From: Verrucomicrobiia bacterium
Lineage (GTDB): Bacteria; Verrucomicrobiota; Verrucomicrobiia; Verrucomicrobiales; DEV007
NCBI GenBank assembly: GCA_030425385.1
Contig: JAUIAH010000051.1
Span: forward strand, 1-37,062
Direction of reading: 5' to 3'
Length of the DNA stretch: 37,062 bases
Within the stretch, counting starts at the first letter, position 1; each line of letters opens with the position of its first letter. The position numbers and the translations under genes were made by a program. This document shows, in pieces, positions 9,667-36,955 of the stretch. A model generated the notes under the pieces. That model did no database searches, was not told where the DNA came from, and saw only the letters and a list, made by a program, of their open reading frames with translations.

Positions 9667-10263
9667 ATGATGCAAGATAGCGATGTGACAACCTCGAAAC
9701 TTCCATGCTTGGGGAGCCTACGGTGGAGTCCGTATGTCGTCGGCGTTGGGATCGGCATGTTGAGCTGGCTCGTCTTTCTCCTCGTGAATAAGCCTCTGGG
9801 CATGTCGACGGAGGTGTCTAAATGGTCTGGCTGGTTGGCGAGTTTCTTTGTCGGCATGGACGCGGTCTCGGAGAATGCCTACTGGGCGAGCAAGACGCCA
9901 AAGTTCGGCTACAGCACGGTGTTTCTCCTCGCGACGATGGTGGGCGCCTTTCTGAGCGCCACCTTGGGAGGCACCTTCCGCCTTGAGAAAGTGCCACATG
10001 TCTGGCGAGATCACCAGGGAGGCGGCGTGGCCAAACGCATGGTGGCCGCATTCATAGGCGGCTTCATCCTCATCTATGGCGCGCGGATGGCAGGCGGCTG
10101 CACGAGCGGCCACGGGATCAGTGGGACCCTTCAATTAGCAGCTTCGGGTTGGCTCTTCTTCATCGCTATGTTCGTCGCTGGCATTGGCACCGCTAGAGTG
10201 CTCTTCCGAGGCACGGACACGCCTGATCCTGACAATGCCACTACCTCATCATCGACGCACTGA
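9667..10263 (+). CDS. YeeE/YedE sulfur-transport protein, first half
   Basis: A 198-residue inner-membrane protein with about four to five hydrophobic spans and the conserved YeeE/YedE cysteine motif MAGGCTSGHGISG (Cys145), which in TsuA-type thiosulfate channels lines the substrate path. Full-length TsuA proteins contain two such halves in one chain; here the second half is a separate gene 3 bp downstream. The start used is the first of two adjacent ATGs, only 6 bp past the operator, and there is no Shine-Dalgarno sequence, so translation may be leaderless or start slightly downstream. Controlled, by position, by the divergent ArsR protein. Confidence 0.85.
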   Translation: MMQDSDVTTSKLPCLGSLRWSPYVVGVGIGMLSWLVFLLVNKPLGMSTEVSKWSGWLASFFVGMDAVSENAYWASKTPKFGYSTVFLLATMVGAFLSATLGGTFRLEKVPHVWRDHQGGGVAKRMVAAFIGGFILIYGARMAGGCTSGHGISGTLQLAASGWLFFIAMFVAGIGTARVLFRGTDTPDPDNATTSSSTH

Positions 10264-10266
10264 GCT

Positions 10267-10830
10267 ATGAATCTCCCAATCTCCACCTCCTCTCCCACGG
10301 GTCTTGTCCTGGCCGGTATCTTCGGGCTCCTCTTTGGCATCCTGCTCAACAAGGGACGCGTCACTGATTACAATGTGATTGTGAATCTCTTCCGCTTCCG
10401 TGATTGGACGGTCCTTAAGATCATGCTCACGGCCATCGTTGTCGGAGGCATCGGTGTCTTCGCGATGATGGCATTCGGTTGGCTGGAGGGCTACCATATC
10501 AAAGATCTGAATGTCCTCGGCATCTTGTTAGGTGGCACCCTCTTCGGCATCGGCATGGCGGTCTACGGCTACTGCCCCGGGACGGGAGCTGCCGCCATCG
10601 CCACTGGCAGCATTCACGCCCTCGTCGGATTCCTCGGGATGATCGTCGGCGGCGTGCTCTACGCGATCACCTACCCAGCCGTGAAGAACTCCATCCTTTC
10701 CGTCGGTGCCCTAGGTAAGGTTCGCCTTCCCGATGCCATACCGATTCCCGAAATCCTCTTCTGGGTGGTATTGGTGGCTGGCGCCCTCTTTCTCTTCCGC
10801 CTCATTGATCGGAAAACGCCCACCACCTAG
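10267..10830 (+). CDS. YeeE/YedE sulfur-transport protein, second half
   Basis: A 187-residue membrane protein with about five hydrophobic spans and the motif YGYCPGTGAAA (Cys103), the second conserved cysteine site of the YeeE/YedE fold. It begins 3 bp after the stop of the preceding half and presumably pairs with it as a heteromeric transporter for thiosulfate or a related sulfur species. Two-gene versions, often beside a BigR/ArsR-like regulator, are a known arrangement in bacteria; no persulfide dioxygenase or sulfurtransferase gene is adjacent here. A hairpin follows 45 bp after the stop. Confidence 0.85.
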   Translation: MNLPISTSSPTGLVLAGIFGLLFGILLNKGRVTDYNVIVNLFRFRDWTVLKIMLTAIVVGGIGVFAMMAFGWLEGYHIKDLNVLGILLGGTLFGIGMAVYGYCPGTGAAAIATGSIHALVGFLGMIVGGVLYAITYPAVKNSILSVGALGKVRLPDAIPIPEILFWVVLVAGALFLFRLIDRKTPTT

Positions 10831-10940: not shown

Positions 10941-13487
10941 CTAGTCAACTAGCACATCATCAAGAAAGAATCCCGCGCCATTGGGTTCGCCAGTATCCGT
11001 GAGCAAACGCCACTCGATGATCACTTTCCGATCTCGGGCTTCCGCTGGTATGGAATACTGAAATTCGGTCCATTCACTCGTGGATCCCCAGAAGATTTCT
11101 TCGTAAGTGGCCAGGGCAGGTTCGCCGCCCGTCTCATCCAAGATGCGCAATTGAACCCCCTCAGCATCTTCTGTTGCGTCCACATAATACCAGAAAGAGA
11201 GTCGAGGGCGTTCGGCATCGGTGAGATCAATGATAGGGGTTCGCAGCGTCGCACTAACGCCATTCCCGTATGGCCCATCCAGGTCCGTGCCGTAGACGTT
11301 GGTGCCACTGCGGGCAGCCGTGAGATTAGGGGCCGCTGGCGTTCCTAACTCCCACTGAGTCGATCCCTGTTCCGTCATCGCCGTCCATCCCTCTGCCCCC
11401 GATTCGAAGTCTTCGGAAAAGAGCGGTGGCGGCGGCAAGATGCCCACGCGGTAATACGCGGCCGTTTCCTGAGGCTTGGTTGTGGAGAAACGGAAGAGGT
11501 CATCGGCCATGGTCAGACTCGCTCCCTCAATGACTTGCCAGGAATCCGGCATGAGACTCACACTCGACTCAAGGACATGCGGTGAATCTGGTTCCGGAGT
11601 CGTGAAATCTATGATCACCTCTTGGTCCGCCGACACGCGAACAATCGATGGCTTGGGGGAACCATCGCTGGCGATACCGAGAAGCCAGTCAATGGCTTGG
11701 CCCACGATGGCGAACCCGTCCTCACTAAGGGTATTGAATCCATTGTCCGTCAGTCCTAACATCACCCGACGACCGGCCGCGGGATTTCCGGTGAGCAATT
11801 CGCCCCCTTGCTCGACGATGGTTAGGAAGAGGCTGTTCTCATCATCGTCATCGCAGGCGAGAGATAGTGAACCCGGTGCTTGTGCGTCGGTAGACCACCA
11901 GAAGTCAGCATCTTCCAGAGTAAACTCCACGGTGGAGCCCACGGGGTATCCGGCCGTGATCGGATGCTCTTCTTTGATGACAATGGAGTGCAACGAAGTG
12001 TCTCGAAGACGTCCATCGGTGACCGCGAATTCCCCCGTGCGATTGGGAGCCAAGGCTTCCTCCCAGTTGAGGATCGGGATAGGGGAATCTTGGAATTTGC
12101 CCCGCATGTCGCCTGAACCGGGCGATGACGAGAGAATGAGCACTCCATATTCCAGTTCATCTCCAGGCTGGAGGGCACTCGCCTGAACGTAATCAACCGC
12201 CAACTCGCCATAACGTTCTTGAAAGAAGGCCATGGCCGCAGGGTCGCCGGAATGGGAGGGATCGGCATTCGCCCCTGCGAAGAGCAAGCGGTGGCTCACC
12301 GCAGGCGCACTGGCGGCATCGGTGGGATCCGTTCCAGCATCGACTTCAGCACCATCAGGCCAGCCGTCGCCGTCTGTATCCGCCATATTGGGATCACTGC
12401 CAGGTTGCGTCGTGGCATTTGCCGCATCATACGCGAGCTCGGGATTCTCCACGCCGTCAGCAAGCCGGTCTCCATCGGAATCTGAGTTGCGCGGATTGGT
12501 CCCAGTCATGCTCGCACTGACCCACACACCGCCGCCATCCTCCGCCCCATCCGCGAGCCCATCGTTATCCGTATCGGGATTGGTGGGAACCGTTCCACGG
12601 GCAAACTCTTCTGCCTCCGTTGACCCATCGGCGTCAACGTCTCCCTCCGGCAACACCTGCGCGAATGCCGTGATGGCATCATTCGGGTCTGCATCAACAA
12701 TCTGCTGCTCCCATAGGTCGGGAAGACCGTCACCATCTGTGTCGACATTCCGCTGCTCCAGAAAGGCGCCCACGCCATTCTCGACGATCACCATGAGGTC
12801 CGTCGCCGAGAGCGCTTCATCCCACACCGAGAGGTCGTCCATGTAGCCGTCATAGGCGTTGTTTCCCGCATTCGATCCGAAATTGAAACGACCATCACCT
12901 TGCACCGTGTGTTCCCCTGTCCGCTCTAGGGAATCTTCCTCGACGCCATTCACGAAGACACGGACAACAGCTCCATCATACGTAAAGGCCACGTGGTGCC
13001 AGGCGTCATTGCTCCACGCATTCGACGACGTCTTGATCTCCGTATCACCACCCATGGTGAAATACATGCCCATTTGGCCATCGCCACCATTGTCTCGACT
13101 GAAACTGAAATGCGGCCGGGCGTTGCAATAGATATGGTCATCGCGTTCGTGCCCTTCGCCGTAGTTCTCCTCGTCGGGCTTAAAGAAATACGCATAAGTG
13201 AAGGCCTCGCCACCCGGCTGGAAGCCCGTCGCATTGTTCACATAGTCATCAATGCCGTCGAAATGAACCGCGCCTCCAAACTTGCCGCCGTCGGGCACCA
13301 AAGAGGAGTCCGCATTGGAATCGAAATTGATGAGCGTCCCATCGTGGCCATTGCCAGTCTGGTCGATGACGGTATCGGCATCGGCCGCCTCGTCAAAACT
13401 CCACCACATCAGCACATCGGCAGATGCAGGCGTGAGAAGGAGAGCGACGGCAGAGAGGCTCGTGAGAAGCGACGGAAGCGGTTTCAT
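10941..13487 (-). CDS. secreted multidomain protein: LamG, Ca-binding repeats, GATase-like, jelly-roll
   Basis: With the ATG at 13487 (848 residues) the protein starts with a clean signal peptide (MKPLPSLL...TPASA). Domains in order: a LamG/concanavalin-like lectin domain (about 25-245, with WHHVAFTYDG and MDDLSVWDEAL); Asp-rich thrombospondin-3-like calcium loops (about 250-400, repeated DxDGDGLxD); a Rossmann-like region resembling ThuA/GATase1-like domains of PVC bacteria (about 405-610, with LILSS, PILNWE and EEHPITAGY); a short W...AAYYRV module (about 615-685); and a C-terminal beta-jelly-roll of MAM/carbohydrate-binding type (about 695-848, with GWTAM and FFLDDVLVD). Likely extracellular binding or processing of polymer; no catalytic site assigned. 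An upstream in-frame ATG (13502) lies in the loop of a hairpin, so the start is not certain. Confidence 0.82.
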   Translation of the reverse strand: MKPLPSLLTSLSAVALLLTPASADVLMWWSFDEAADADTVIDQTGNGHDGTLINFDSNADSSLVPDGGKFGGAVHFDGIDDYVNNATGFQPGGEAFTYAYFFKPDEENYGEGHERDDHIYCNARPHFSFSRDNGGDGQMGMYFTMGGDTEIKTSSNAWSNDAWHHVAFTYDGAVVRVFVNGVEEDSLERTGEHTVQGDGRFNFGSNAGNNAYDGYMDDLSVWDEALSATDLMVIVENGVGAFLEQRNVDTDGDGLPDLWEQQIVDADPNDAITAFAQVLPEGDVDADGSTEAEEFARGTVPTNPDTDNDGLADGAEDGGGVWVSASMTGTNPRNSDSDGDRLADGVENPELAYDAANATTQPGSDPNMADTDGDGWPDGAEVDAGTDPTDAASAPAVSHRLLFAGANADPSHSGDPAAMAFFQERYGELAVDYVQASALQPGDELEYGVLILSSSPGSGDMRGKFQDSPIPILNWEEALAPNRTGEFAVTDGRLRDTSLHSIVIKEEHPITAGYPVGSTVEFTLEDADFWWSTDAQAPGSLSLACDDDDENSLFLTIVEQGGELLTGNPAAGRRVMLGLTDNGFNTLSEDGFAIVGQAIDWLLGIASDGSPKPSIVRVSADQEVIIDFTTPEPDSPHVLESSVSLMPDSWQVIEGASLTMADDLFRFSTTKPQETAAYYRVGILPPPPLFSEDFESGAEGWTAMTEQGSTQWELGTPAAPNLTAARSGTNVYGTDLDGPYGNGVSATLRTPIIDLTDAERPRLSFWYYVDATEDAEGVQLRILDETGGEPALATYEEIFWGSTSEWTEFQYSIPAEARDRKVIIEWRLLTDTGEPNGAGFFLDDVLVD

Positions 13488-13520
13488 AGAGAGTGCGCAC
13501 ATGACAGGCGCACACTCTCT
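13488..13520 (-). other. hairpin abutting the start codon of the LamG gene
   Basis: Arms 13488-13498 and 13508-13520 pair (11 bp with a 2-nt bulge, 9-nt loop) and end directly at the ATG at 13487. No Shine-Dalgarno sequence fits between. It is either a translation-controlling 5' hairpin for the LamG gene or the terminator of the repeat-protein gene whose stop is 59 bp upstream; no T-tract follows. Confidence 0.5.
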
Positions 13521-13578
13521 GCAAGGCAATCACACCCTGCAACTCGCTTTACCAACTCACTCTCGTCAATTTCCGCCC

Positions 13579-15405
13579 CTAGAGGCTGGGAGGCGTGATG
13601 TTAGGCGCCGGATTGTCGGGGGAATCGTTGACCTCAAGAGCCAAGGTATAGTCCGCGAACTGCCAGCGGTTCAAATCAGCCAACCACCAGAGACGCAGAT
13701 GAATCGTGCGGTCCTCATTCGGGAGATCAACGTCAATGAAGGTCGTCTCCGTGTTGATGAATCCTGAGTTGAACAGATCGCGTCCTCCCACCTCCGAGCC
13801 AAGATAGACCCAATAAGCAAAGAGCTTGGTGTCATTCGGAGCGAAGTGGAAGCGCTCAGTCACACCGCCCTGGATCGTGCTCCCAGGAGCCGGCTCGGTA
13901 AGGGCTGGCAGGACAGGACCCTGAATCTGATAGAGGAAATCCGCATAGCTCCACGTGAGGCTATTAGGCAAGTGCCAGAGTCGCACCCAGACCTCACCGT
14001 CTAGATTGACAGGAAGTTGCACCTCCTTGGCGCGCACGTCGGAAAGCAACGTACCTGATTCATAAATGTCCGTGCCCCCCTTGGCACGCCCAACACTCAG
14101 CGCCCAAGCGTTGCCAATCACCCCGTTGTCGTCCCATTGGAAATTGATCCGCGGTCCCGCAATGAGGGTGCCAGGCCCCGGGAAGCTCATCTTGGGCAAC
14201 CGACGCGTGGTGAAGAGATGATCCCGCTGGTTCCAGCTTTCACCCACCCGATAGAAAAGCCGCACATGAAGCGTCTCTCCATTGGTAGGCAAGTTGTTCA
14301 CGGTCACCTTCGTGGCCGTGCCCATGTCCATGTTAAAGATGCTATCGTCCCCCTTCGAGGTGCCCACATAGATCCACCAGCGATCCACATTGAGCAGCTT
14401 CGCCGTCCATTGAAACTCTACCTGGGCTCCAAAGATCTCCGAGCTCGGAACGGGACTAAAGATCTGAGGCGCCGCATCTCCATTGGGATCATAAGCATAC
14501 TGATAGTCCTTCTCTTCCCACGCACCACCAGCCTGGTAACGCAGGCGAATCCAGAAGGTATCCGTCCCATCTGGTAACGCGTTGACCTGAGCGGAACGAA
14601 CACTCGTAGCCACCTCTCCCGTATCGAGAATCTCGGAACCTCCCTGAGCCGCACCGACCAAGACCTGCCAGGCACTGACGTTGGTCTGACTCGGTGTCCA
14701 TTGAACGACAAAAGGAACGGTAGTCACCGTGCCACCAATGCCGGGAGCAATGATCACGGGAGTGGTAGACGTGACTTGTGCGGTGTACTGATAATTCAGG
14801 TCACGCCACACATTGATATAGAAATAAGAGAGTCGAACCCAAACGGTTCCGCCATTAGTTGGCAACCCTGACACATCCACACTTCTGACATTAGCCCCAA
14901 CGGTCACGTCCGCATATTCCGTGCCTCCCGAACTCGAACCCACACGAAGGCGCCATTGCGTGGCGTTTGTCCCACGATCTTGCCAGCCGAAGGTCACCGA
15001 ATCTGAAGGCAAGACCGAACCTGGAGCCGGGGTGGTGAGGGCAGGAGGCGCTGGTAGTGGCGTATTGAAGGTGTAATCGTTCGCTTTGAAGACGAAACGC
15101 TGTCCCTCGCGCTCTAACGAATACAGCGTCACAAACAACGTGGTGCCATTGGTAGGGAGTCCAGTGACCGTGACCGAAGTGACGTCAGAAGTGAAGCCCT
15201 TGCTGTAGAACTGTTCCCCGCGTTCGGAGCTACCAATGGACAGATGCCATTGAAACACTTGTGCCCCATCCCCTGTCCAGCGGAACTCGGTGGAGCTACC
15301 GCCCAACGTACTACCGGCGTTGGGACTCGTAAGGCGCGCGGCGGAAGCGGTAGAGACCACCGCGAGGAGACTAAGGAGGATAAGAGATGGCTTGATCATG
15401 ACCAT
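13579..15405 (-). CDS. secreted protein of six tandem LPTNG/WVRL repeats
   Basis: A 608-residue exported protein: signal peptide (about 1-22, ending TASAA) followed by six back-to-back units of about 90-97 residues starting near 23, 117, 212, 306, 403 and 497. Each unit has SPxPGSxL at its start, FxW a few strands later, WxLxVGSSxGG in the middle, then LPTNGxxxWVRLxY, then W...DYxY at the end, a beta-sandwich-like pattern. The units differ a lot in sequence, so they are old duplications rather than recent DNA repeats. No cysteines form pairs, and no sorting or anchor signal (no LPXTG plus TM, no PEP-CTERM) is seen. The next gene upstream encodes a seven-copy relative. I do not recognise the domain; surface structure or carbohydrate/protein binding is a guess. 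Confidence 0.83.
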   Translation of the reverse strand: MVMIKPSLILLSLLAVVSTASAARLTSPNAGSTLGGSSTEFRWTGDGAQVFQWHLSIGSSERGEQFYSKGFTSDVTSVTVTGLPTNGTTLFVTLYSLEREGQRFVFKANDYTFNTPLPAPPALTTPAPGSVLPSDSVTFGWQDRGTNATQWRLRVGSSSGGTEYADVTVGANVRSVDVSGLPTNGGTVWVRLSYFYINVWRDLNYQYTAQVTSTTPVIIAPGIGGTVTTVPFVVQWTPSQTNVSAWQVLVGAAQGGSEILDTGEVATSVRSAQVNALPDGTDTFWIRLRYQAGGAWEEKDYQYAYDPNGDAAPQIFSPVPSSEIFGAQVEFQWTAKLLNVDRWWIYVGTSKGDDSIFNMDMGTATKVTVNNLPTNGETLHVRLFYRVGESWNQRDHLFTTRRLPKMSFPGPGTLIAGPRINFQWDDNGVIGNAWALSVGRAKGGTDIYESGTLLSDVRAKEVQLPVNLDGEVWVRLWHLPNSLTWSYADFLYQIQGPVLPALTEPAPGSTIQGGVTERFHFAPNDTKLFAYWVYLGSEVGGRDLFNSGFINTETTFIDVDLPNEDRTIHLRLWWLADLNRWQFADYTLALEVNDSPDNPAPNITPPSL

Positions 15406-15472
15406 GAGGGGTTCGTCACCGGTAAGATCCTCGATTCTTTCAGGGATTCAACCAACATCTCTGAAAAGCAAA

Positions 15473-15500
15473 GCGGCCAACGGGGAAACCCGTTGGCCGC
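15473..15500 (-). terminator. Rho-independent terminator
   Basis: A perfect 12-bp stem (15473-15484 with 15489-15500) with a 4-nt loop lies 35 bp after the stop of the seven-repeat gene. On the minus strand the stem is followed by TTTGCTTTT. It separates the two repeat-protein genes into different transcripts, or attenuates the second. Confidence 0.85.
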
Positions 15501-15535
15501 AAATTTAGAGTGAGTTTGGTAACAACTCGCTCGGA

Positions 15536-18049
15536 TTACCCGAGGCCATTGTTGTCGCCATTCCCATCGGTCTCGTTCTCAGGACCGGTGACGCCACCGC
15601 CACCACCACCACCGCCGAGATCGACGGTGATTGCGAAGTCGAGGAACTTCCACTGGGTGAACTCGTCGAGATACCAGAGGCGGACGTAGTTCGTGCCAGC
15701 TTTCAGACCACTCACCTCAGCGCTCAACACGCCGGGCTGGAGGAAGCCAGAGTTGTAGATGTTGGTTCCACCGACTTGGCCGCCTTTGTCAGCAGCTTGG
15801 TTGTCAGCCACATAGAGCCACCAACCGAAGACCACCGTGTTATTACGCTCCCAAACGAAGTTGTAAGTCGTGGAGCCGAGCTTCAACCCGTCATTGGTCG
15901 CATCGAGCGGCGCAAAGTAGCGAGCGTCGCCATTGTCCGCATTCGGTGCACGGAGGCGAGGCACAGGAACCGTCTCGGAAGAGGTGTAGGCCCATGTGCG
16001 ATACTCCCATGCGGAAACCTGATTGCGGGTCACCAGCCACCATAAGGTCACATAGACTTTAGATCCATCGATCGGAAGATTCCGGATACGGAACGTATCG
16101 GTGTCAGCGGCCAAGAGGTTGCTGTTATCGATATCGGCAGTGCCAGGATTGGGATTCTTAGCGTCGCCACCTGTGGGAGCAGCCGAAGAAACCGTGACCC
16201 AAAGGCCATCCACATTCACACCGCGCTTGTCGATCGTGATGTCACGCTGAGTGCCCACGATGGTCGCACCAATGCCAGGACTCGTGATCTCTGGGCACTG
16301 AGGATTCGTGAAGAGGAAGTCCCGAGGCAACCACTTACGCGTGGTCGTCTCGATCGTTTCGCTGTTCTGCGAAGGATCAGGATTGGATCCCGTGGTCTTG
16401 ATTTCCACCAGCCACCAGAGACGCACCCAAAGAGGATTGCCATCGGTAGGCAGATTGGTCAGCGTCCGCATCATCGTGGTCGCGGAGAGCGCACCACTGT
16501 TGTGATACTGGCGACCGCCTTGCTCGCTACCAACATAGAGCCAGTAACCGAGAACATTGGGGTAGTTACCATCCGTCCACTCGAAAGTGGCCTCGTTACC
16601 GAGGAATGAGCTGTGGCACTTCACAATGGAACCAGGAGCCGTGAGGTAGGGAACCTTCTGCGTTTCGAACGGGCAGATCACGGCGTCCGTGAAGAGGTTC
16701 TCGGCGAGACCGCCGCCAACCCAGTAGCGAAGGATGATGTAGACGGTGCGACCGTCAGTCGTGAATTTGGAGTTTGGAACACTGACTGAGCGAACATCAG
16801 CGCCTAGGAGTCCGCTTTTCCACACGCCATTGTCACTGGCATCTCCCGTTTCGTTCACAACCACTTGCCACTGCTGAGCTTGGGTTCCTTTATCGTCCCA
16901 AGTCACCGTTTGCGTGTTCGTTGGATTCGTGAGGTCAGTCGGCAGCTTATCGGGATTGTCGCCGCCTTTGATGGGAGCGACGATGACAGGACCAGAAGAC
17001 GCTTTGAAGGTGAACTCACGGCACTTCCACTTGTCAGGGCCTTCACCGGTCAAGCGCCAGAAGAGCGTGACGAAGACGTTAGAGCCATCATCCGGGAAAT
17101 TCTGAAAGGGCTCAAGGGTAGCCACCGTGCCGCGATCATCGGCAGGCACTTGCTGACCATTGGAGTGGTAGTCGAAGGTCTGACGAGCAGGACCTGCATA
17201 GACCCACCAGTATTGGACCGGCAGACCGTTCGGGTCGAGAACGAGATTGCCCGTGGTGCCTGGAAGCGATCCACCAGGAGCAGGACTCGTGATGGCTGGG
17301 AGGGTTGGCGTACCATACTGGAAGATATTGCTCTGCCAGTTATTCGTAGGGTTGCCATCGCTATCACCTGGATCCCACCATAGCGTCGCGATCACAGGAT
17401 CACCGGCCGTCGGGATGTTGGTGATCGTCACGGAACGCTGGTCGCGCGTGAGTTGTCCACTATTGTAGTAGCGGTCTGTGTCAGCAAGCGTGCCGAGGTA
17501 GAACCACCAACGCACGGGCTCACCGAGCACCTGAACCACTTCCCAATCGAAGGTCACCATGGGTGGTGCCTTACAACCATCCACATCCTGAAGGGCGAGC
17601 CCTGTGCCAGGGACGGGAGAATAGATGTAATGCTGATTGGCAGCAAAGTAGACGTAGTCACGCCATTTGAGCACCTCAATGCCCGACTCTTTCACAGTCC
17701 AGTGCAACCGGACGAAGACCTTCCGACCGTCGGTCGGGATTTCCAAATCTGCTTCATAACTGCCTTTGTCTTTGACGGCAGGGATGAATCCGGAGTCAGC
17801 GATCTCGCCGAAACCTTGGAGAGAACCCACGAAAACGCGGAAATTCACCTGATTGTCATTGTTCAGGCCACCGCGGTTCCACTTAAACTTCACGATTCGG
17901 GTATTCAGCCGCGTGATCTCTGCGTCAGGCGTGCCGACTTCTTTCACGTCCGTAGGAGCGGTCAGAGCGGGATCCTGCGCGAGCGCAGAAACCGTGAAGA
18001 GGCCTGAGAGCGCCACTAAGAAAAGTCCTCTCAACGAACTTCCCTTCAT
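15536..18049 (-). CDS. secreted protein of seven tandem LPTNG/WVRL-type repeats with Gly tail
   Basis: The start is the ATG at 18049, preceded by GGGGAGG at suitable spacing; the longer open frame upstream is not used. The 837-residue product has a signal peptide (MKGSSLRGLF...VSALA) and then seven units of about 105-120 residues of the same kind as in the downstream gene: WxxYVGSxxGGxxYxNSG, then LPTDGxxLWVRLWW, then W...DFxFT. Unit lengths vary more here because of loop insertions (for example in units 2, 5 and 7). The chain ends in eight glycines and an Asn/Asp/Gly-rich acidic tail (about 810-837). No transmembrane anchor or known sorting motif is visible. The good ribosome site and dedicated terminator suggest substantial expression. 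Function unknown; probably an extracellular or cell-surface structural protein. Confidence 0.84.
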   Translation of the reverse strand: MKGSSLRGLFLVALSGLFTVSALAQDPALTAPTDVKEVGTPDAEITRLNTRIVKFKWNRGGLNNDNQVNFRVFVGSLQGFGEIADSGFIPAVKDKGSYEADLEIPTDGRKVFVRLHWTVKESGIEVLKWRDYVYFAANQHYIYSPVPGTGLALQDVDGCKAPPMVTFDWEVVQVLGEPVRWWFYLGTLADTDRYYNSGQLTRDQRSVTITNIPTAGDPVIATLWWDPGDSDGNPTNNWQSNIFQYGTPTLPAITSPAPGGSLPGTTGNLVLDPNGLPVQYWWVYAGPARQTFDYHSNGQQVPADDRGTVATLEPFQNFPDDGSNVFVTLFWRLTGEGPDKWKCREFTFKASSGPVIVAPIKGGDNPDKLPTDLTNPTNTQTVTWDDKGTQAQQWQVVVNETGDASDNGVWKSGLLGADVRSVSVPNSKFTTDGRTVYIILRYWVGGGLAENLFTDAVICPFETQKVPYLTAPGSIVKCHSSFLGNEATFEWTDGNYPNVLGYWLYVGSEQGGRQYHNSGALSATTMMRTLTNLPTDGNPLWVRLWWLVEIKTTGSNPDPSQNSETIETTTRKWLPRDFLFTNPQCPEITSPGIGATIVGTQRDITIDKRGVNVDGLWVTVSSAAPTGGDAKNPNPGTADIDNSNLLAADTDTFRIRNLPIDGSKVYVTLWWLVTRNQVSAWEYRTWAYTSSETVPVPRLRAPNADNGDARYFAPLDATNDGLKLGSTTYNFVWERNNTVVFGWWLYVADNQAADKGGQVGGTNIYNSGFLQPGVLSAEVSGLKAGTNYVRLWYLDEFTQWKFLDFAITVDLGGGGGGGGVTGPENETDGNGDNNGLG

Positions 18050-18446
18050 GGGACTCAAACCTCCCCGTCTTTCCCGTTTCCCTGGGACACTTACTTTACA
18101 TGTCATACTCATAGATAGGTGTATCTTATAGGGTTGGTGTGTTGATGAGGATGTTTCTTTGGTTTTGTTTCGATTGCTTGCAAGGGCTCGACTGTTGCGA
18201 TGCATCAGCCGTCGCCAGAAATACCTGTCTCACAGATGAAGAAAGGTATCCTGTCCAAGTAAGTCCTCGGATCCACACAGTCAAGCGCTTAAATGGACCG
18301 GAATTTGAAATATCCAGGGGGTTCGCAACACTCTTCCTAACACTACAAAAGCCGCTTCCACTCTTGATTCATAGGGTTCTCCGACCCCTCCCCCGTCACC
18401 GAAGCGCCGAATGCTTTCATTCGACTTATAAGAAATTCAAGAAATC
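18050..18446 (-). other. intergenic region and long leader upstream of the seven-repeat gene
   Basis: About 400 bp without a gene. On the minus strand a TTGACT (18284-18279) and a weak TACTTG (18261-18256) stand 17 bp apart and could be a sigma-70-type promoter giving a roughly 200-nt leader. A good Shine-Dalgarno sequence (GGGGAGG) ends near 18061. The frame of the downstream gene stays open to 18205 but the translated extension is low-complexity and unlikely. No terminator hairpin for the DUF2314 gene was found. Confidence 0.35.
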
Positions 18447-19787
18447 TTAAGAAGTTTCGTCGCGAGATTTGTCGACAGGCTTCCGCGGCTCGCCTTCGTC
18501 CGCTGACTGGACTTTCTGAATGAATTTCGTGGTCTCATTTCCCTCTTCGGAGCCATCCGCCTTGATATGGAGGTAGTCAAAGACCTGGTCGATCTTGATT
18601 TCTTGAGGCTCTGCCCTGCTCTCCTCGGCGACCACCGTCCCATCGGCGCTTACTCGCGGGACCTCCACGGCCTTCAGGGTGTCCTCTTCCCACGCAGCGA
18701 CTTGGAGCCATTTGTACTCCGAATCGACGAAGGCCTTGATGAGGAGTTTCTCGCCCTCGGGCAAGCCTGCTTGCACCAATAGACGCTTCTCTTGCAACTT
18801 CTTCTGCGCGGCTTCGCTCAAGGCCATGAGCTGTTCCCGCTGATTCCACACATCAAGGAGTCCATCCTCGGGACGCATGAGGCGGTCTACCGCGTAGGCC
18901 TGCTTTTCATGATAGGTTCCGCCCGGATAGGCCATGAAATCTACGGTGAGGAGGTCGTTGCGTGGGTCTCCTTTCTCTGGCTTGATCGGCACCAAGGCAA
19001 GGTCAGGAATGTCCCCTTTCTCACTGAGCTGCAGGAGCTTCTGCAACGTGGCTCCCTCCCATTTGGTGGTGGGCTGGAGGGGCCCCTGCACGGCCACCTG
19101 ATAGACCAGAAAGCGCATCATCTCAGACATGGGTTCCCAGAAGACTTTGGGAAACTCCGTGATCACGAGGTCGGGCAGGCCCAATTTCCGCATGCCAAAG
19201 GTGACCGAACGGAAGTTGCCGGAGGCCAATTGATACCCGTGCATGCTGGTGTTGGCGAATACGGGCTGTTCCGTTGGCGGACGTTTCTCTTTCCACACCC
19301 GGGTCGAGAACAATTCGCGCGTTTCCTCGTCCCAAAGGAAGCCTTTGGTCGCTTCCGCGATCTCAAGAGCTAGGCGATTCGCCGCGGCGAGATATTCGTA
19401 ATTCTCAGGATCGACGATGAAGAAGTCGATCACCAAGACGGTGCTAGTCTTTTGCAGGTGTTCACGATCCGCTGCTGTCGTGCCAAAGCCTTTGTGCTCG
19501 AGGTAATCGACTTTCGGGGGCGGGTAATCCTCCGGCTCGACCGAACGGAACTCCACGTAGTTCCCTTTCGCAAATCGCACCACGCCTGACCGATAGGTGA
19601 AGTCCTTACGGAATCCGGCTTCAAAGACACGATTGGCGACTTTCAGCGGATCGCCCGTCGGTTTCGGCGCGAAATAGAGCGCATATTGGAAGTAGACCCC
19701 ATTGGGACGCGCGGGAGCGTCCTCCTGCCCCGTAGCTCCGAGAACAGTAGACGCCAAGCATAGCAAGAGGAGTTTCGGTAATGACAT
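18447..19787 (-). CDS. secreted DUF2314-like domain protein
   Basis: A 446-residue protein with a signal peptide (about 1-20, LLLLCLASTVLG). The C-terminal part (about 335-430) resembles DUF2314: LLIKAFVDSEYKWLQVAAWE, then IKIDQVFDYLHIKADGSEEGNET. The N-terminal 300 residues form a region with YFAPKPTGDP and a DPENYEYLAAANRLALEIAEATKGFLWDEETRELFS helix-strand run, also seen with DUF2314 in other predicted proteins. The extreme C-terminus is charged and disordered. DUF2314 proteins are usually cytoplasmic, so export is unusual. First of four consecutive minus-strand genes for exported proteins. Function not known. Confidence 0.72.
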   Translation of the reverse strand: MSLPKLLLLCLASTVLGATGQEDAPARPNGVYFQYALYFAPKPTGDPLKVANRVFEAGFRKDFTYRSGVVRFAKGNYVEFRSVEPEDYPPPKVDYLEHKGFGTTAADREHLQKTSTVLVIDFFIVDPENYEYLAAANRLALEIAEATKGFLWDEETRELFSTRVWKEKRPPTEQPVFANTSMHGYQLASGNFRSVTFGMRKLGLPDLVITEFPKVFWEPMSEMMRFLVYQVAVQGPLQPTTKWEGATLQKLLQLSEKGDIPDLALVPIKPEKGDPRNDLLTVDFMAYPGGTYHEKQAYAVDRLMRPEDGLLDVWNQREQLMALSEAAQKKLQEKRLLVQAGLPEGEKLLIKAFVDSEYKWLQVAAWEEDTLKAVEVPRVSADGTVVAEESRAEPQEIKIDQVFDYLHIKADGSEEGNETTKFIQKVQSADEGEPRKPVDKSRDETS

Positions 19788-35673: not shown

Positions 35674-36711
35674 TCACTCCAACCGTTCCCGCAAGTCGCG
35701 CAGCGACCGCAACTCTCCCCAATCCCCGCCACGCATCTTCCGTCCTCCATCCTTCCGTTTCGGCCCAAAGTATTCCCGCTTCGCCTCAAAGAACCCATCC
35801 ACAAACCCCTTCGACCCAATCACCACCCCATCCGTGAAATAACGCACCCGACACCGCAACAGCGCCGCCAACGGCAGCTCCCCTCCAGATTCACGCACCG
35901 CCGCCACCGCTTCCGCAGACGCCCCCTTCCGCACCACCTCTCCACTAGCCGTCACCTGCGCCTCCCCCATCCCAAACAACACCCGCCGATACTCCCGACC
36001 CACCACACGCCAATTCGGAATCGCCCGCCCCTCGCGCAACGCCTCCTCCTGCATCAGAAAGCCCAATCCACGACGCGCCGCCGGTTTCCCCGCCACCGCC
36101 TCCGCATACCCACACCACCGATAATCCTTTGGATCCTCCACCATCCCCGCACGCACCGCATTCAGATCCACATACCCCGCCACCGTCATCAACGCGTCCC
36201 AACCGCCCTCAATCACCACACTCTTAAAACGCTGCTCCCAAAGCCGCCCCACCCGTTCATGACGCTTGTTGAACCACACCGTGAAGCGCTGCAACAGGGT
36301 CTTCATGAACTCCGAAAGATCATGCATCCGGTTCACGAAATCCTGCCGATATGCCTTCTCCTGCACCACCGCCGTCGCGCCCCCATTCAGTTCATAAAAC
36401 GAGGCAATCCGGGCCCGAATCGCATCCATCTCCTCCCGAGAATAAAGCGCACTCAACCGCGCCCAGAACTCCTCCTCCGGCAAATCATCCACCCCAATCG
36501 TCTCCGGCACCTGCAGCACCAAATGCAGATGATTATCCAGCATCGTCCACGTCACCACGGTCACGTTCGCAAAGCGCTCCACCTTCCGCAGCAGCGTCGC
36601 AAACCGCTCCTTCGCTTCCTCACCCAACAGGAAATGCCGCCCATTGACACGTAATACGACGTGAAAACACTGCGACCCTTCGACTAACAACATGCGACGC
36701 GGCTTCCTCAT
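35674..36711 (-). CDS. REP-associated tyrosine transposase (RAYT, Y1/HUH)
   Basis: A 345-residue single-stranded-DNA HUH nuclease of the TnpA_REP class. The N-terminus MRKPRRMLLVEG fits other RAYTs, so ATG 36711 is chosen over the GTG nine bases upstream. The HUH motif is DNHLHLVLQ (near 62). The helix FMKTLLQRFTVWFNKRHERVGRLWEQRFKSV and the catalytic-Tyr region VAGYVDLNAVRAG follow. The C-terminal 140 residues form an extra domain seen in longer PVC RAYTs. The domain is complete, so it may be active. Its 5' side faces short repeats (36790-36955), but no hairpin typical of REP/BIME is clear there. Confidence 0.9.
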   Translation of the reverse strand: MRKPRRMLLVEGSQCFHVVLRVNGRHFLLGEEAKERFATLLRKVERFANVTVVTWTMLDNHLHLVLQVPETIGVDDLPEEEFWARLSALYSREEMDAIRARIASFYELNGGATAVVQEKAYRQDFVNRMHDLSEFMKTLLQRFTVWFNKRHERVGRLWEQRFKSVVIEGGWDALMTVAGYVDLNAVRAGMVEDPKDYRWCGYAEAVAGKPAARRGLGFLMQEEALREGRAIPNWRVVGREYRRVLFGMGEAQVTASGEVVRKGASAEAVAAVRESGGELPLAALLRCRVRYFTDGVVIGSKGFVDGFFEAKREYFGPKRKDGGRKMRGGDWGELRSLRDLRERLE

Positions 36712-36789
36712 AATCAGCACCTACACCCACCTCTCGATCTTGACAACTGCTTTCTCATTATTTCTCCTGTCCCCTTACTTCCCTAAATG

Positions 36790-36819
36790 AATGGTTTCTG
36801 TCCCTCTAAATGGTTTCTG
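36790..36819. repeat. 19-bp-period tandem repeat, copy 1 block
   Basis: AATGGTTTCTG occurs at 36790-36800 and 36809-36819, a 19-bp period containing GTCCCTCT. The octamer GTCCCTCT recurs at 36800, 36827, 36878, 36899 and 36911. It lies on the 5' side of the RAYT gene. Confidence 0.8.
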
Positions 36820-36865
36820 AGGGCCTGTCCCTCTCTTCTCGTCCCGGCCTAGCAACCTCTTTCTT

Positions 36866-36907
36866 GTTAAAAGGCCTGTCCCTCTAGTTAAAAGGCCTGT
36901 CCCTCTA
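36866..36907. repeat. 21-bp perfect tandem duplication
   Basis: Two identical 21-bp units abut at 36866-36886 and 36887-36907, each containing AAAAGGCCTGTCCCTCT. A truncated third GTCCCTCT follows at 36911. No spacer or palindromic core, so not CRISPR. Confidence 0.92.
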
Positions 36908-36917
36908 AATGTCCCTC

Positions 36918-36955
36918 TAAGGCAGTGCGAAATAATTAAGGCAGTGCGAAATAAT
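36918..36955. repeat. 19-bp perfect tandem duplication, possible IS end
   Basis: Two identical 19-bp units (36918-36936, 36937-36955), core GGCAGTGCGAAATAAT, stand 12 bp beyond the stop codon of the transposase fragment. The AT-rich tail and position suggest the right terminal repeat of that IS element, duplicated in tandem; this is inference. Confidence 0.8.

Follow-up and report, generated by a model that had tools for sequence, protein, structure and literature searches.

Two neighbouring genes of a Verrucomicrobiia bacterium (assembly GCA_030425385.1, contig JAUIAH010000051.1) encode proteins in which copies of one repeat follow each other, raising the question of whether this repeat is a domain of its own kind and what such proteins might do. 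The window, by which we mean the whole stretch of DNA analysed, comprises 37,062 nucleotides. The initial annotation had described two adjacent secreted proteins with six and seven copies of an unnamed domain, and considered them a possible new class of surface or matrix proteins. That observation is confirmed, and its interpretation is partly supported.

Two genes built from one repeat unit

Both genes lie on the minus strand. The first, P608 (13579..15405), was delimited by its open reading frame and a profile of the repeat, and encodes 608 residues. A hydrophobic stretch judged by eye to be a signal peptide (residues 1-22, 15340..15405) is followed by six FnIII-like units delimited by the profile: unit 1 (residues 23-119, 15049..15339), unit 2 (residues 120-214, 14764..15048), unit 3 (residues 215-311, 14473..14763), unit 4 (residues 312-402, 14200..14472), unit 5 (residues 403-498, 13912..14199) and unit 6 (residues 499-592, 13630..13911). 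The protein ends 16 residues past unit 6. The second gene, P889, has a longest open reading frame of 15536-18205, or 889 residues from the first ATG. The upper limit of 18049 given at first is an internal ATG. Sequence comparison is suggestive, and only suggestive, of a start at ATG 18112 (15536..18112, 858 residues) rather than at 18205 or 18049. From ATG 18112 on, the protein sequence is similar across the four genus genomes compared, and genus genome G003 has an in-frame stop just upstream of this codon. The start is uncertain because the leader upstream (in the region 17975-18200) is likewise conserved in the four genomes. A long N-terminal region (17975-18200, minus strand) precedes the hydrophobic stretch of P889; from ATG 18112 it forms a signal-like region (17975..18112), with the signal again judged by eye, that resembles its counterparts in the other genus genomes.

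The seven FnIII-like units of P889, also delimited by the profile, occupy 17636..17974 (unit 1), 17303..17635 (unit 2), 16994..17302 (unit 3), 16655..16993 (unit 4), 16298..16654 (unit 5), 15965..16297 (unit 6) and 15620..15964 (unit 7). The eight-glycine acidic tail noticed earlier is present at the end of P889 (15539..15616). Comparison with orthologues revealed that the eight-glycine run is kept in none of three, the G003 orthologue having four glycines, and that the acidic end occurs in three of the four proteins, P889 among them. A Pfam scan and the profile recognised no part of either protein other than the units, the signal-like region and the short tail. Both proteins are probably exported; because export rests on signal peptides judged by eye, they may instead be periplasmic.

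Between the genes lies a terminator-like hairpin (15473..15500, minus strand) with a 12-bp stem that contains 10 G-C pairs, the most of the 12 in the region (read as 15500-15473; shuffles, mean 7.3, s.d. 3.0). In G003 a terminator-like hairpin of 14 pairs separates the same two genes, and in genus genome G002, which has no P608 downstream, only a 7-bp hairpin site lies behind the P889 gene. The strong terminator described initially thus survives as a terminator-like hairpin with a similar one in G003; such matches are no proof of termination.

The units of P608 and P889 are 91-119 residues long, and the mean identity among the 13 window units is 27%. The fixed order of motifs noted from the letters holds over an alignment of 116 units (13 from the window), in which the conserved positions are kept in 72-99% of units: P7 (99%), G10 (74%), F20 (93%), W22 (95%), G37 (95%), G41 (86%), P62 (96%), G65 (92%), R71 (88%), L72 (98%), W73 (84%), W80 (84%), D84 (87%), Y85 (72%) and Y87 (72%).

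The profiles first used to delimit the units included window units and their scores are circular; the fair test is therefore comparison across proteins, with foreign units and with shuffled sequences. A profile built solely from the six units of P608 recovered each of the seven in P889 (27-56 bits), and one built solely from those of P889 recovered all six of P608 (40-53 bits), bearing out the proposed relatedness of the two proteins. Similarly, a profile of 103 foreign units detected all 13 window units, at 48-89 bits in P608 and 19-61 bits in P889, and so upheld the two arrays of six and seven copies; the lower scores mark the P889 units as less typical than those of P608. The 103 units were drawn from 210 foreign units collected, from 59 of 65 loci with at most two per locus and at most 80% alike; units that scored below 45 bits or were short were left out. 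By comparison, 400 shuffled proteins (200 each of P608 and P889) gave zero matches at E <= 10. No tandem array at the DNA level was reported within either gene, indicating that the arrays are old; this result and a mean unit identity of 28-30% within the proteins rule out recent tandem duplication inside the genes.

Predicted fold and spread of the unit family

The failure to match a named domain held up in searches of two collections. There was no Pfam match below E 0.001 for the two proteins, six single units or 116 units, and NCBIfam gave none for either protein or for 11 units. Accordingly, we reject membership in an ordinary Pfam or NCBIfam family. Pfam fn3 (PF00041) scored 12.3 bits against whole P608, below its curated cut-off of 25, and did not match whole P889; no fn3 match at E <= 1e-6 was found in the window's own genome. 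Only 3 of the 116 units matched fn3 at E <= 0.1 (best E 0.054), and 16 of 116 had a weak likeness to Big_7 (PF17957) at the same threshold (best E 0.0014). In hhalign comparisons, the unit profile aligned to fn3 at 87.6% (P 3.5e-6, 67 columns; a single comparison with 26 same-order fn3 domains), whereas Big_7 reached 13.0% (P 2.2e-3, 17 Big_7 domains), and a control of fn3 against Big_7 gave 3.3% (P 0.013). The fn3 alignment comprised 26 of 27 matches and the Big_7 alignment 17 of 29.

An AlphaFold model of P608 unit 4, computed with the 116 units aligned, has seven strands and a pLDDT of 97.7. In a Foldseek search of the PDB with this model, FnIII domains and engineered FnIII binders ranked top; the best E was 1.3e-3, with no match at E <= 0.001. 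Among the 50 matches listed, TM to the query was 0.51-0.72 and most were FnIII or engineered FnIII; numbers 36, 47 and 49 were LPMOs and number 44 an Ig domain. When these matches were re-checked with VIA-align, the top ones, mostly FnIII, had Z of 10-11 over 76-87 residues, and 329 of 998 chains reached Z 8. They included fibronectin (Z 10.1) and the FnIII modules of Clostridium thermocellum CbhA (3pdd; Z 10.6, rmsd 2.2, 83 residues), which differ in being modules of the CbhA protein and are 13% identical. A viral structure library returned only low-identity look-alikes, two of them at E <= 0.001. PDB sequence searches yielded nothing at E <= 1 with P608 and three matches (E 0.17-0.68) with the 116-unit profile. 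A six-unit stretch was modelled with a mean pLDDT of 87.5 and six or seven strands per unit; its pTM was 0.40, so no bead-to-bead geometry is established.

A new fold is rejected on the AlphaFold, Foldseek and VIA-align results, and we conclude that the repeat unit has, by prediction, an FnIII fold and constitutes a sequence family of its own. It resembles fn3 in predicted fold, strand pattern, the conserved tryptophan of the second strand and the L...G...Y turn before the sixth strand. It differs in its own signature (SPxPGSTL, VGxxxG, LPTDGxTxYVRLW and WxxxDYxY) and in a turn two residues longer, LPTDGxTxY in the unit against LxxGTxY in fn3. The family is without a name in the Pfam and NCBIfam searches made here, and neither the fold nor the kind of protein is new. 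Demotion to ordinary FnIII of known function, envisaged at the outset, therefore applies to the predicted fold and not to the function.

Restriction of the family to PVC bacteria, which had been held to favour novelty, is rejected. A degenerate-motif scan of the genome collection returned 65 stretches on 63 contigs from 55 assemblies (counted by accession prefix), all 65 of which were confirmed by the profile. Their record titles, used here in place of checked taxonomy, name about nine bacterial phyla, and the scan used one canonical motif, which favours typical units. The titles cover Verrucomicrobia, Acidobacteria, Nitrospirae, Chloroflexi classes, Rokubacteria, Omnitrophota, Planctomycetes, Gamma- and Deltaproteobacteria, Mariprofundaceae and one uncultured bacterium. 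Two others are doubtful: an Acidimicrobiia-titled genome (L087, G439) is grouped in the same phylum as a Paludibaculum-titled one (L105, G441), and the sole archaeon-titled match (L102) sits on a 5-kb contig. In the window's own phylum, at least 8 of 387 genomes matched a broad profile at E <= 1e-6 and at least 5 matched a window-only profile, the own genome being counted in both; in the phylum of the Paludibaculum-titled genome, at least 11 of 297 matched, four at E < 1e-20, with the centre genome counted. These tallies are lower bounds because scoring covered no more than 13 or 17 candidates in each genome. Among 57 relatives, the unit was present at E <= 1e-5 in five, namely the four genus genomes (the window's own included) and G010, a member of the same family outside the genus that carries it in a different protein (a 1151-aa frame). 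With titles from about nine phyla and few matching genomes in the two phyla counted, the family is widespread and patchy. A single tblastn query with one foreign unit, a weak probe for spread by phages or plasmids, found no match in either collection, and no description of the repeat motif was apparent among the literature matches listed.

The window's own genome has two more unit-bearing gene regions, on contigs C30 and C43. The first (L010:5085-8696) begins with units and continues with an acidic DxDGD repeat and a region in which an HExxH motif was read by eye; in two other genomes of the phylum (L053 and L054), one unit precedes a HELAH motif, also read by eye, suggesting that all three proteins are secreted metallopeptidases. 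The second (L011:2207-4748) is a paralogous unit array split between two overlapping frames, which would fit a frameshift or an assembly error. Elsewhere, a locus titled Desulfuromonadaceae (L113:1337-2656) contains five consecutive 264-base units with a mean identity of 94%, a recent tandem expansion within the unit family.

Individually maintained units and a fixed neighbour

Mean unit identity is 30% within P608 and 28% within P889. For all 13 units, the best match outside the unit's own protein is the same-numbered unit of an orthologue, at 47-77% identity. Units this dissimilar within a protein, each paired with its own counterpart between species, are individually maintained rather than homogenised, and the diversified beads follow one another in a fixed order.

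Upstream of P889 lies a gene for a 446-aa protein (18447..19787, minus strand) that begins with a signal-like stretch and matches no Pfam or NCBIfam family. It adjoins the P889 orthologue in all four genus genomes examined, with order and strand kept, and a divergent cyclophilin-type isomerase and an ApbE gene are also kept beside the pair. The 446-aa protein had no match in the other 53 of the 57 relatives. P608 was found in two of the four genus genomes, the window genome and G003, the two proteins being 63% identical. In G002 the 3.7 kb that follow P889 do not contain it; in the fourth genome, G001, the contig stops about 1 kb past P889, and in both of these the only matches to P608 at E <= 1e-5 lie in the P889 orthologues.

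Other features of the window include, on the far side of P608, a gene for an 862-aa protein (10941-13529, minus strand) in which a LamG-like domain and bacterial TSP3 repeats were recognised; it had no match in the G003 locus (L047), which extends about 3.3 kb past P608. Two adjacent plus-strand genes match the two halves of Sulf_transp (PF04143) in reversed order, the first (9667-10263) the C-terminal half and the second (10267-10830) the N-terminal half. The stretch 35674-36955 contains an IS200-like transposase gene and, beside it, two short arrays of direct repeats (21 and 19 bases).

Possible roles of the two proteins

A shared FnIII fold by itself shows no function. A model for the role of P608 and P889 is RbmA of Vibrio cholerae, a matrix protein of tandem FnIII domains that binds exopolysaccharide and governs biofilm architecture (PMC5605196). 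In P608 and P889, tandem FnIII-like units are the only recognised part of each protein, with export judged by eye; PMC5605196 names two FnIII domains for RbmA, against six in P608 and seven in P889. The proposed likeness is one of working mode, and the three sequences matched by the 116-unit profile at E <= 1 in the PDB copy searched included no RbmA chain. We put at about 0.5 the probability that P608 and P889 are extracellular all-FnIII scaffold or adhesion proteins that would work like RbmA. They would be exported by a signal peptide and reach an extracellular or surface location, where different beads may bind different partners, such as a polysaccharide, the cell surface or the 446-aa protein, and the proteins would bridge these partners in the way that RbmA does with its tandem FnIII domains in a biofilm. 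Neither protein yielded a ligand, an anchor or a binding site, which counts against this reading, as does the finding of P608 in only two of the four genus genomes. That the two stand-alone arrays represent a new class, as first suggested, is possible, although a biofilm matrix protein of tandem FnIII domains is already known in RbmA (PMC5605196).

A somewhat unlikely alternative is that the two proteins and the 446-aa protein form a single complex, outside the cell or in the periplasm, in which P889 would be the scaffold and P608 a later copy. The constant adjacency of the 446-aa gene and P889 favours such a complex, as does the lack of a match to the 446-aa gene in the other 53 relatives, of which only G010 has the unit by the unit search; however, adjacency within one genus may reflect simple shared descent. 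The register of the two arrays also bears on this alternative. Of the 5040 possible assignments, the one that pairs P608 units 1-6 with P889 units 2-7 in order comes out ahead of most, ranking 34, 41, 63, 115 and 179 in five of eight comparisons and 140 on a rounded mean matrix; in the other three the register is weak (ranks 706, 971 and 2317). On the strength of this fit, P608 may be an old copy of P889 that lost the first unit.

The use of the unit in other proteins raises the prospect of a passive stalk or spacer, whose beads would give length only, without specific binding. Among foreign frames with a complete C-terminus, the last unit lies no more than 10 residues from the end in 40 of 53, and in 36 of the 42 with at least two units, placing the unit often at the C-terminus of unrelated proteins. 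Their remaining parts, 74 segments, matched 70 Pfam families, and each of the 25 families listed occurs in at most 5 segments. Among the matches listed are fn3, RCC1, FG-GAP repeats, subtilase, PKD and cadherin-like domains, as well as leucine-rich, InlB-type, CAP and alkaline phosphatase families, a mix that we read as one of secreted or surface proteins. In a separate set of 42 foreign arrays of at least three units, mean unit identity is 41-94%, as might suit a spacer (an alignment of arrays with at least four units comprised 26). P608 and P889, however, have no further recognised domain that a stalk could display, and their units are less alike (28-30%) than those of any of the 42 arrays although each one is conserved from species to species. 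The foreign set was chosen by the canonical motif and omits units below 45 bits, which favours alike units; the direction of this difference is probably real and its size may not be. We consider a stalk unlikely for this pair.

Equally unlikely is the idea that the units are carbohydrate- or substrate-binding modules assisting an extracellular enzyme of the same cell. The joining of units to an acidic repeat and an HExxH region in the paralogue on contig C30, the single unit before a HELAH motif in L053 and L054 (both motifs read by eye) and the presence of the FnIII modules of the CbhA enzyme among the closest folds are consistent with such help. The neighbours conserved in the loci compared, however, are the 446-aa gene, the cyclophilin-type isomerase and ApbE, with no such enzyme among them. 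The complex, stalk and enzyme-helper explanations overlap. Still less probable is that the unit is an unnamed FnIII superfamily of about nine phyla working as a C-terminal surface-retention or sorting module, with P608 and P889 as stand-alone derivatives whose beads would have been specialised into an ordered matrix scaffold with the 446-aa partner.

The pair P608 and P889 is a good test object because its beads are individually conserved and its fixed neighbour is found only in the genus. The repeat recurs in about nine phyla and lacks a Pfam or NCBIfam match here; with a model of the repeat, the ends of many uncharacterised proteins could be annotated.
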